A stretch of DNA of 35,979 bases from assembly GCA_018780145.1 (NCBI GenBank), contig JADMKA010000179.1:1-35979 (forward strand), read 5' to 3'. Shown in pieces: positions 14,164 through 16,836 of this stretch (positions are counted from its first letter, which is position 1; every line of letters begins with the position of its first letter). Below the pieces are notes generated by a model, which saw nothing but the letters and a program-made list of their open reading frames with translations, ran no database searches and had not been told where the DNA came from. A program made the translations under genes and the position numbers. The DNA is from Vitreoscilla sp. GTDB lineage: Bacteria > Pseudomonadota > Gammaproteobacteria > Burkholderiales > Burkholderiaceae_C.

Positions 14164-14928
14164 TCAGCCGAGTTCCACCACCACCGGAGCGTGGTCGCTC
14201 GGCCGCTCGTTCTTGCGCGGCAGCTTGTCGATCGCGCAGGCCTGCACGCTGGCCTTCAGCGCGTCGCTGACCAGGATGATGTCGATGCGCAGCCCCTGGT
14301 TCTTGCGAAAGGCCAGATTGCGGTAATCCCACCAGCTCCAGCACTTGAGTGGCTGTTCGAACATCCGGTAGGCGTCGTGCAGGCCCAGGCCCACCAGCGC
14401 GCGGAACTGGTTCCGCTCTTCGACCGTGCAATGGATCTGGCCGGCCAGGCCGATCGGGTCGTAGACATCGCGGTCGTCCGGCGTGATGTTGAAGTCCCCC
14501 ATCAGCACCAGCTTCGGGTGGGCGGCCAGTTCCTCGCGCAGCCAAGCGCGCAGCGCATCCAGCCACTGCATCTTGTAGGCGAACTTGTCGGTGCCGGGGG
14601 CCTGGCCGTTGGGGAAGTAGCCGCCAACGACGCGGATGCCGGCCACCGTGCCGGCGATCACGCGGGCCTGGTCGTCGGCGAAGCCCGGGATGTTGCGCAC
14701 CACCGCGTCGGCCGGCTCGCGCGACAGCAGCGCCACGCCGTTGTAGGTCTTCTGGCCATGGAAGACGACGCGGTAGCCGGCGGCCTCGATCTCGGCGGCC
14801 GGAAACTTGCCATCCACGAGCTTGGTTTCCTGCAGCACCATCGCGTCCACCGGGTTGGCAGCCAGCCAATCCAGCAGTTGCGGCAGGCGCACGGCCAGCG
14901 AATTGACGTTCCAGGTGGCGAGTTTCAC
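14164..14928 (-). CDS. xth: Exodeoxyribonuclease III
   Basis: A 254-residue AP endonuclease/3'-5' exonuclease of the ExoIII family, acting in base excision repair. Visible motifs are ATWNVNSL at the N-terminus, the metal-binding QETK, the catalytic GDFNITP and the C-terminal SDHAPVVV, with RIDIILVS before it. Length and motifs are normal. The GTG start at 14928 has AGGAG 4 bases upstream. The gene is divergent from umuD (123 bases apart), grouping two DNA repair functions. Confidence 0.95.
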   Translation of the reverse strand: MKLATWNVNSLAVRLPQLLDWLAANPVDAMVLQETKLVDGKFPAAEIEAAGYRVVFHGQKTYNGVALLSREPADAVVRNIPGFADDQARVIAGTVAGIRVVGGYFPNGQAPGTDKFAYKMQWLDALRAWLREELAAHPKLVLMGDFNITPDDRDVYDPIGLAGQIHCTVEERNQFRALVGLGLHDAYRMFEQPLKCWSWWDYRNLAFRKNQGLRIDIILVSDALKASVQACAIDKLPRKNERPSDHAPVVVELG

Positions 14929-15039: not shown

Positions 15040-15045
15040 TATACT
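15040..15045 (+). promoter_or_regulatory. -10 element of umuD, leaderless geometry
   Basis: TATACT ends 6 bases before the ATG at 15052, placing transcription start at the start codon. No ribosome binding site is present. The element overlaps the first half of the LexA-like box. Confidence 0.55.
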
Positions 15046-15059
15046 GTGGATATGTCCAG
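15044..15059 (+). promoter_or_regulatory. LexA (SOS) box candidate over the umuD start
   Basis: CTGT-N8-CCAG matches the proteobacterial LexA box CTGT-N8-ACAG at 7 of 8 defined bases. It covers the end of the -10 and the start codon, where repressor binding would block transcription. SOS control is expected for umuDC. Confidence 0.6.
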
Positions 15060-15495
15060 CTCACTGAATCCCGGCGAAGCGGTCCAGGTGGGGCGCGACC
15101 CGGCCGTGCCGGCAGCCGCGCCACGAGCCAGCGTCGCCATTGGCTTCGGGTCGCCATCGCAGGACACCGGTGTCACAAGGCTGGATCTCAACGAGGTGCT
15201 GATCAAGCACCCCCAGGCCACCTATCTGATGCGCGTGGCCGGCGGCGCGATGCGCGAGGCGGGTATCGATTCGGGCGACATCGTCCTCGTCGACCGCGCC
15301 GTCACGCCGGCGCACGGCCACGTGGTGATCGCCATCGTCAACGACGAATGCGTGTGCCGCCGCTTGCTCAAGCAGGGGTTGCAGATCCGGCTGCAGGCGG
15401 CCACACCAGACAACCCCGACATCGTTCCACGCGAGGGCGAGGAGGTGCAGATCTGGGGTGTCGTGACCAGCGCCATCAAGTCGATGCCGGTCTGA
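15052..15495 (+). CDS. umuD: UmuD-like subunit of DNA polymerase V, catalytic residues missing
   Basis: A 147-residue S24-type UmuD homologue. The core aligns with E. coli UmuD: LDLNEVLIKHPQATYLMRV corresponds to the segment before the active site, and DSGDIVLVDRAVTPAHGHVVIAIV follows it. The nucleophile motif SGDSM reads AGGAM (Ala66 for Ser60), and the general-base Lys97 position is Arg103 (VCRRL for VKKL). The Cys24-Gly25 cleavage site corresponds to Ile30-Gly31. Self-cleavage to UmuD' therefore looks impossible, though the fold and umuC neighbour are normal. ATG at 15052 is chosen because the TATACT/LexA box ends at it; the frame is open further upstream. The stop is 15 bases before umuC. 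Confidence 0.88.
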   Translation: MSSSLNPGEAVQVGRDPAVPAAAPRASVAIGFGSPSQDTGVTRLDLNEVLIKHPQATYLMRVAGGAMREAGIDSGDIVLVDRAVTPAHGHVVIAIVNDECVCRRLLKQGLQIRLQAATPDNPDIVPREGEEVQIWGVVTSAIKSMPV

Positions 15496-15510: not shown

Positions 15511-16836
15511 GTGTTCGCTCTCGTCGACGTCAACAACATGTATGTGAGCTGCGAGCGGGTGTTCCGCCCGTCGCTCCTGGGCCGCCCGGTGGTGGTGCTG
15601 TCCAACAACGATGGCTGTGCCATCGCCCGCTCCAACGAGGCCAAGGACCTGGGCATCAAGATGGCCCAGCCCTGGTTCCAGATCCGGCACTTGCGGCGCG
15701 AGGCGGGGTTGATGGCCTTGTCGGCCAACTTCGAGCTGTACGGCGACATGTCCAGCCGCATGATGGCGCTGGTCGGTGAATACGCGCCGCGCCAGGAGAT
15801 CTACTCGATCGACGAGTGCTTTCTCGACTTCGACGGCGTGCGCGACCACCTGGCCGGCATCGGCCGTGACATGCGCGCCAAGGTGCTTCAATGGACGGGT
15901 CTGCCGACCAGCGTCGGCTTCGGGCCCACCAAGACGCTCGCCAAGCTGGCCAACCATGTGGCCAAGACAGCCGATCGCAAGCCGGGCAGCTACCCGGCGC
16001 AGTGGGCCCAGGTCTGCAACCTGGCCGAGCTGAGCGCCCTGGACCTCGAGCTGTTGATGCGGGCCACCGAGGTGGGCAACGTCTGGGGCGTCGGCCGCAA
16101 GACCAGTGCGAGGCTGAACGAGCAGGGCATCCGCAGCGTGCTCGATCTGGTGAACGCCGATGCCAACACACTGCGCGGCCAGTTCAGCGTGGTGCTGGAG
16201 AAGACCGTGCTGGAGCTGCGCGGCACGTGCTGCATGGGCGTCGACGAAGCGCCGGCGGCCAACCAGCAGATCATGTGCTCGCGCTCCTTCGGGGCGCCCG
16301 TGACCGAGCTGTCCGTTTTGGTGGAGCTGGTCAGCCAGTTCGCCTCCCGCGTCGCCGAGAAGGCCCGCCAGCAGCGCAGTGTCGCCGGCGCCGTGCACGT
16401 GTTCGTCTCGACCAGCCCGTTTCGCCAGCAGGACAGGCAACACAGCCCGAGCGGGACGCTGCCGCTGAGCCGCCCCACGGCCGACACGCGCGGGCTCGTC
16501 GCCGCCGCAGTTCGGCTGGTGCAGGGGCTGGTGCGGCCCGGCTTCAACTACGTCAAGGCCGGTGTCATGCTGGTGGACCTGCAGCCGGAAGGCCAGGTGC
16601 AGCAGGAACTGGATCTGTTCGCCGGCATGGAGGACGCGGGGGCGCCGACACGGGGCCGCGATCAGCTGATGGGTGCGCTCGACACCCTCAACCAGCGGTT
16701 CGGCAAGGGGGCCGTGTCGGTGGCCAGTGCGGCCCGGCTGGAGGCACGCGGTGGCTCTGTGGCCGCTGCCAGGCAGGCGTGGCGCTCTGCACGCTACACC
16801 ACCCGCCTCGACGAGATCCCAACGGTACATGCTTGA
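15511..16836 (+). CDS. umuC: UmuC, catalytic Y-family subunit of DNA polymerase V
   Basis: A 441-residue translesion polymerase. The N-terminus ALVDVNNMYVSCE carries Asp6; YSIDECFLDF carries Asp101 and Glu102, so all three catalytic acids are present at E. coli numbering. SNNDGCAIARSNEAK and VGFGPTKTLAKLANH are conserved finger and thumb segments, with helix-hairpin-helix VWGVGRKTSARL. A beta-clamp motif QQELDLF lies at 364-370 in the C-terminal region. The start is GTG at 15511. It forms an operon with umuD, presumably under LexA control. Length is slightly above E. coli UmuC (422). Confidence 0.95.
   Translation: MFALVDVNNMYVSCERVFRPSLLGRPVVVLSNNDGCAIARSNEAKDLGIKMAQPWFQIRHLRREAGLMALSANFELYGDMSSRMMALVGEYAPRQEIYSIDECFLDFDGVRDHLAGIGRDMRAKVLQWTGLPTSVGFGPTKTLAKLANHVAKTADRKPGSYPAQWAQVCNLAELSALDLELLMRATEVGNVWGVGRKTSARLNEQGIRSVLDLVNADANTLRGQFSVVLEKTVLELRGTCCMGVDEAPAANQQIMCSRSFGAPVTELSVLVELVSQFASRVAEKARQQRSVAGAVHVFVSTSPFRQQDRQHSPSGTLPLSRPTADTRGLVAAAVRLVQGLVRPGFNYVKAGVMLVDLQPEGQVQQELDLFAGMEDAGAPTRGRDQLMGALDTLNQRFGKGAVSVASAARLEARGGSVAAARQAWRSARYTTRLDEIPTVHA

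Follow-up and report, generated by a model that had tools for sequence, protein, structure and literature searches.

A naturally occurring UmuD clade without a self-cleavage dyad, found beside UmuC

In the textbook account, the self-cleavage of UmuD holds mutagenic repair back until accurate repair has been given a chance, and the HumD protein of phage P1 is a UmuD' that is made short from birth. The N-terminal arm of E. coli UmuD docks on the core through T14, L17 and F18. Replacing the three residues (T14A/L17A/F18A) undocks the arm and yields a non-cleavable mimic of UmuD' that still has full-length arms, while another non-cleavable variant, UmuD 18, gives low mutagenesis only (both according to parts of PMC5342242). 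Two point mutants indicate that in E. coli pol V is blocked once cleavage alone is lost: with UmuD(K97A), UmuC is kept at the membrane and mutagenesis by pol V is strongly inhibited (PMC4552617, in part), and UmuD S60A lowers UV mutagenesis (PMC3901139, likewise in part).

The locus described here lies in a 35,979-nucleotide stretch of a Vitreoscilla sp. contig, hereafter the window, and its features are collected in Table 1. The protein encoded by the umuD-like gene reaches 123 bits against the NCBIfam model NF007621 (UmuD; cut-off 110) and matches Pfam PF00717 (Peptidase_S24) at 7.7e-22. Its four best PDB sequence matches are UmuD or UmuD' chains (8gmt, 1umu, 1i4v and 1ay9), and UmuD' 1ay9 is also the best fold match of its AF2 model (TM 0.91, by target length). 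That the NCBI model passed by this protein reads “autoproteolytic subunit” illustrates how database naming can mislead. Two other identities were considered and rejected. As a LexA the protein scores 54 bits (cut-off 111); only an S24 domain is matched in its 147 residues, with no N-terminal DNA-binding domain, and the LexA of this genome is another gene, with Ser and Lys. As a HumD, an arm-less UmuD', it scores 61 bits (cut-off 120), and it carries a 30-aa arm.

Table 1. Features of the umuDC locus, in window coordinates
Feature	Position	Strand	Remark
Possible -10 element, TATACT	15040..15045	+	by eye only
LexA-box-like site, CTGTGGATATGTCCAG	15044..15059	+	7 of 8 core bases; contains the ATG
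umuD homologue without self-cleavage dyad	15052..15495	+	ATG to stop, 147 aa
N-terminal arm, residues 2-29, Pro/Ala/Arg-rich, without hydrophobic docking segment	15055..15138	+	
Former cleavage site, Ile30-Gly31	15139..15144	+	alignment
Codon 66, GCG (Ala), nucleophile Ser position (AGGAM)	15247..15249	+	alignment
Codon 103, CGC (Arg), general-base Lys position (CVCRRL)	15358..15360	+	alignment
umuC, GTG start, catalytic residues intact, C-terminal DUF4113/RecA-NT-like region	15511..16836	+	

Both the Ser nucleophile and the Lys general base are absent from the window UmuD, which has Ala66 and Arg103 (the Lys97 position) in their places, and Ile30-Gly31 stands where a Cys/Ala-Gly cleavage site is expected. 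An earlier reading, made from the sequence without database searches, had reported these three changes with correct coordinates and residue numbers. It had named Cys-Gly as the residues replaced; the usual pair in related UmuDs is in fact Ala-Gly (Ala in 90 of 92, Cys in 2 of 92).

The changes are not confined to the window. A search of 399 family genomes, a contig scan of named genomes, genus searches and fetched stretches together provided 28 distinct UmuDs that lack the Lys, spread over 27 genomes and 10 genus groups of one family. UmuDs of this clade occur in at least 13 of those 399 genomes, a lower bound taken from the places that were fetched and read for residues. Because the Lys itself decided whether a protein went into the Lys-less or the comparison group, all 92 comparison UmuDs have it by definition; what the grouping tests is whether the Lys-less proteins form one clade, the Arg in 28 of 28 and the state of the Ser. 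Loci were picked by likeness to the window, and the 92 proteins, like the set of 63 used below, are comparison sets and not random samples. Rows below 115 bits (LexA and others), UmuD-like rows of the KPTSG/TPTSG type and the shortened L124 were dropped before counting.

Arg occupies the Lys position in all 28 clade members. At the nucleophile position Ala is found in 18, Gly in one and Ser in nine, against Ser in 92/92 of the comparison set. The residue before the old bond is Ile in 16, Ala in 5, Ser in 3, Phe in 2, Val in one and Asn in one (comparison: Ala 90, Cys 2), and the one after it is Gly in 15, Ser in 11, Thr in one and Ala in one (comparison: Gly 92). The Pro of the GFPSP motif has become Gly throughout the clade (28/28; comparison: Pro 88, Ala 2, Thr 2). 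The proposed check whether the Ala/Arg pair is conserved in a clade gives Arg in every member and Ala in 18 of the 28. The argument that several losses, and not one random mutation, lie behind the window protein holds: the Lys-less UmuDs are one clade, with Arg in every member and the Ser lost in 19.

Loss of the Ser in none of the 92 proteins that have the Lys and in 19 of the 28 that lack it suggests an order of events. The simplest story would be that the Lys went first and the Ser drifted afterwards, with at least three changes of Ser state needed inside the clade; all clade Ser codons at this position are TCG and the Ala codons GCG or GCC, and some regain of Ser may also have occurred. 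RecA-stimulated self-cleavage has almost certainly been lost in this lineage, although the nine Ser-keeping members could conceivably retain some residual activity with Arg. An error of sequencing or assembly in the window is exceedingly improbable, the same or parallel changes being present in 26 other genomes, the named isolate Rhizobacter sp. Root1238 among them; with such independent genomes at hand, resequencing is unlikely to overturn the loss of the dyad.

When the Ser, Lys and cleavage-site columns were removed, the 28 proteins still fell on one side of a single branch of the UmuD tree (86 rows; bootstrap 100, SH-aLRT 97), from which L050-L078, L047, L048 and L161-L163 were left out. 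The UmuC partners, counted without rows matched over 250 positions or fewer, likewise group together (26 of 102 rows; SH-aLRT 100). The recovery of the same clade on both trees is most simply explained by one origin of the trait and by a history shared between umuD and umuC. A broad origin outside the family was considered and rejected: when 399 genomes of the order were searched, the next score after the 240 bits of the window itself was 162 bits, and the 29 loci read from that search (L050-L078) all have Ser and Lys. Among plasmids (at least 5000 records searched) the best 40 matches are annotated UmuDs of 44-66% identity, and among phages the best identity is 43% for the 20 listed of 66 matching records; both searches bear on overall identity. 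The genes flanking the window's umuDC were not found at the other loci compared, most of which span only about 1.5 kb on each side. A contig of 9.3 kb classed as viral in IMG/VR (L171, 1-5298) carries a dyad-less umuDC (GSAM, CRRL) near a gene that looks by eye like a terminase, so that the pair may travel with prophages. A separate UmuD-like family was also encountered (L109-L114, L117 and L118), with frames of 201-202 aa, intact Ser and Lys, a longer N-terminus, and KPTSG or TPTSG where the others have GFPSP.

The clade differs from its relatives in the arm as well. Large hydrophobic residues at arm positions -6 to -12 are lacking in 25 of the 28 clade members and number one in the other three, whereas 60 of the 63 comparison arms have two or more; none of 20000 label permutations was as extreme, in a comparison uncorrected for relatedness. 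The arm of L014 is too short to span these positions. Arm and box counts were made without L050-L078 (of which L051, L054, L060 and L073 are family members) and without rows lacking GFxSP or a start codon; they still take in the distant L047 and L048. Of the arm residues, 2.8% are Leu in the clade vs 13.1% in the comparison arms. Arm lengths in the clade range up to 43 aa and six are short by their inferred starts, namely those of L014 (7 aa) and of L010, L096, L099, L103 and L126 (13-19 aa). The clade has lost the hydrophobic segment that matches the docking stretch of E. coli UmuD, and the window protein is without it too. In genome G227, the LexA-box-like site of L014 begins 52 bases upstream of the old cleavage site, and its product would be practically a UmuD' from birth.

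Structure prediction points the same way. Over residues 1-40 the mean pLDDT per block in the AF2 model of the window protein is 47, 48, 49 and 50, against 51, 64, 69 and 63 for the canonical UmuD L009 of the same genus; the two AF2 alignments are not equally deep (69 and 41 rows) and low confidence is not proof of disorder. The cores of both are mostly at 95 or above. We infer that the arm is undocked in the cell. SVAI, just before the old site, is kept in most of one subclade, and these conserved residues could mean that the strand is still bound in the cleft.

The partner gene follows directly downstream of umuD. The UmuC-like protein of the window scores 415.6 bits (UmuC cut-off 431) and does retain D6, D101 and E102 and a clamp-type motif (QQELDLF), as had been read from its sequence. 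Long UmuC frames lie beside 27 of the 28 clade umuDs, and D6, Y11, D101 and E102 are present in all 26 that were aligned; L099, outside these 26, has a long frame with insertions and no stop. By a strict pattern the RecA-NT-like motif is found in 24/26 clade UmuCs and in 36/48 of the comparison set; this motif and the UmuC C-tail correspond to the contact regions for RecA and UmuD' (PMC6511836, in part). The tail is shifted in the clade, where a preceding Trp is present in 10 of 26 proteins vs 38 of 48. Residue 10, beside the steric-gate Tyr11, is Met in 25/26 clade UmuCs and Phe in 64/76 others.

These observations bear on what an uncut UmuD does to its polymerase. The sequence-only reading had left three outcomes standing: a polymerase V that works with an uncleaved subunit, one that is constitutively restrained, and processing by another route. 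The first of them is favoured by what the arm shows, by the purifying selection on umuD and umuC, and by an intact UmuC. We lean towards a reading in which the uncut UmuD, its arm undocked, acts like UmuD', so that pol V would be gated by SOS transcription and RecA and not by self-cleavage. The dyad has gone (now Ala66 and Arg103), the old site has drifted and the docking segment has been lost, with the UmuD' fold and the partnership with UmuC kept; the uncut protein would sit permanently “arms up” and behave like UmuD', of which E. coli UmuD 3A, with its non-docking arm, is described as a mimic; an active complex with UmuC would form as soon as the protein is made; and control would pass from a timed cut to LexA-regulated transcription and to activation of the complex by RecA, with a changed timing of mutagenesis. 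An extended version, in which the timer was removed once, the polymerase kept and the arm remodelled to make the uncut subunit the active one, with Phe10 to Met perhaps offsetting the lost restraint through fidelity, is plausible but falls short of probable.

The strongest counter-fact is the block of pol V by UmuD(K97A), yet that mutant retains the E. coli arm; the low mutagenesis seen with UmuD 18 also counts against the favoured reading. The main rival, a restrained and accuracy-favouring pol V, starts from this block. Here the uncut UmuD would permanently bar UmuC from mutagenic bypass and serve a role in damage tolerance or as a checkpoint, perhaps with more accurate bypass, in the manner of uncleavable E. 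coli UmuD (PMC4552617, PMC3901139, both in part). The Met at UmuC residue 10 fits this proposal insofar as E. coli UmuC F10L has higher fidelity, lower UV mutagenesis and an altered choice of sugar (PMC3493448, in part), but Met and Leu are different residues; and the window's genome encodes ImuA, an ImuB-like protein and DnaE2, which could do the mutagenic work. However, what the clade has lost is the very stretch of arm that in E. coli is linked to UmuD-specific functions, and some members are almost arm-less, the opposite of what keeping an inhibitory form needs. We regard permanent restraint as unlikely, if well worth keeping in mind.

A third possibility is that the protein is processed differently, either in trans by another S24 protein or by a host protease, into a UmuD'-like form. 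S24 proteins are capable of this, UmuD 18 being able to cut UmuD S60A (PMC5342242, in part), and one genome (G388) has both a canonical UmuD (L008, identical to L007 over the stretch shown) and a clade UmuD (L126/L130), so that mixed dimers could form in that genome. The genome of the window (96.5% complete, 280 contigs), by contrast, gave no second UmuD in a search with PF00717; besides this umuD the matches were a LexA, its Ser and Lys both present, and an S24 protein of 265 aa, so that no canonical UmuD was found that could cut the window protein in trans. The old site is moreover variable in the clade (I16 A5 S3 F2 V1 N1 / G15 S11 T1 A1). Processing by another route is, in our judgement, improbable. 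The 265-aa protein (L003 1411-2211, minus strand; contig C74) keeps the Ser (GDSM) but in the alignment carries Arg where the Lys would stand (IFRQL), and may be a second S24 protein without self-cleavage. A second umuD and imuA/imuB-dnaE2 had been named earlier as genes to look for in this genome; the former was not found and imuA, an imuB-like gene and dnaE2 were, along with a DinB-type IMS frame (486 aa) and DnaE1. The imuA and imuB-like genes are adjacent (L128 4839-7219, L169), with dnaE2 on another contig.

Finally, the pair could be decaying or without function. Its distribution is patchy: of the 16 genomes searched from the window's genus, 3 have a UmuD-like match (E 1e-20), and the clade kind occurs in the window's genome alone. 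Median pairwise dN/dS lies above that of canonical genes, both for UmuD (clade 0.44, comparison set 0.35) and for UmuC (clade 0.32, comparison set 0.27). In Root1238 (L034 808-870, L006) umuD is intact and umuC is a remnant that ends after 12 matching codons, followed by unrelated residues and a stop; the umuDC pair of this genome is dead or changed, which makes decay slightly likelier and the reading of an active uncut complex slightly less so. Within the same genus as the window, a canonical-type umuD (L124, genome G894; GFPSP) has a match that ends after about 75 residues, and neither the rest of umuD nor a umuC was found when that strand was scanned for simple motifs, the locus being apparently disrupted.

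Against decay stand 28 distinct stop-free UmuD frames in 10 genus groups, the long UmuC frames beside 27 of them with invariant catalytic residues in the 26 aligned, and dN/dS values well below 1. For the window and its nearest relative dN/dS is 0.28 for UmuD (95% interval 0.18-0.42) and 0.28 for UmuC (0.21-0.35). Both umuD and umuC are under purifying selection. Within clade UmuDs the core has 0.40 and the arm 0.76, the arm being less constrained. General decay thus looks quite improbable to us. The umuC remnant of Root1238, the weaker selection on clade UmuD (0.44 vs 0.35) and the weak selection on its arm (0.76) nevertheless count against an uncut UmuD that works as UmuD'.

A LexA-box-like site overlies the ATG in the window, and the layout CTG-N5-(A/G)TG-N2-CAG, in frame and at most 150 bases upstream of the GF motif, recurs in 14/28 clade and 40/63 comparison genes; when the bases of these stretches are shuffled, 0.04 such layouts, in any frame, are expected for either set. 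The layout is thus an inherited one that was lost or moved in half of the clade, and the window umuD may be under LexA control. The window pattern taken alone is not significant: CTGTN9CAG occurs four times in the window vs 5.6 times in shuffles, and it is the position and the conservation that count. The TATACT seen by eye would place +1 at or near the ATG, making a leaderless transcript possible; a sigma-70 promoter scan found none at the umuD start at its threshold. A gene of the exonuclease III type (Exo_endo_phos; 14164-14928, minus strand) is divergent from umuD and starts about 120 bases from it.

The claim that self-cleavage was lost through several concerted changes can accordingly be widened, the loss being a clade trait that includes the docking segment of the arm. 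HumD, short from birth, and the engineered non-docking UmuD were already known; a search of titles and abstract openings in the open-access literature turned up no natural lineage of UmuD lacking the dyad, which is weak evidence that none has been reported. Whether mutagenic repair needs to be delayed, and which arm regions are responsible for the inhibition, can be put to a direct test in a natural lineage without self-cleavage. A dyad-less UmuD still paired with its polymerase suggests that the emergency error-prone polymerase can run without the cutting step, and a cleavage-independent pol V, if true, would remove a textbook step of SOS mutagenesis.

Set beside the described systems, the window protein resembles the UmuD of E. 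coli pol V in its UmuD' fold, the umuD-umuC order, the LexA-box-like site at the start and the RecA-NT-like motif of UmuC, and differs from it in having neither Ser, Lys, Ala/Cys-Gly site nor hydrophobic docking segment. With S60A and K97A it shares the loss of the same catalytic residues, of which each mutant lacks one; those mutants keep the E. coli arm and, in the parts of the reports cited above, block pol V, whereas the clade arm has changed as well. Like HumD it would be a UmuD'-like partner that needs no cut, and some clade arms are nearly absent (7 aa in L014); unlike HumD, the window protein retains 30 residues of arm and scores only 61 of the 120 bits required. UmuD 3A (T14A L17A F18A) is likewise uncuttable, with a full-length arm devoid of docking residues (PMC5342242, in part). 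That protein is a laboratory variant, whereas the type described here, known from its sequence, is natural, fixed in a clade and deprived of the dyad too.
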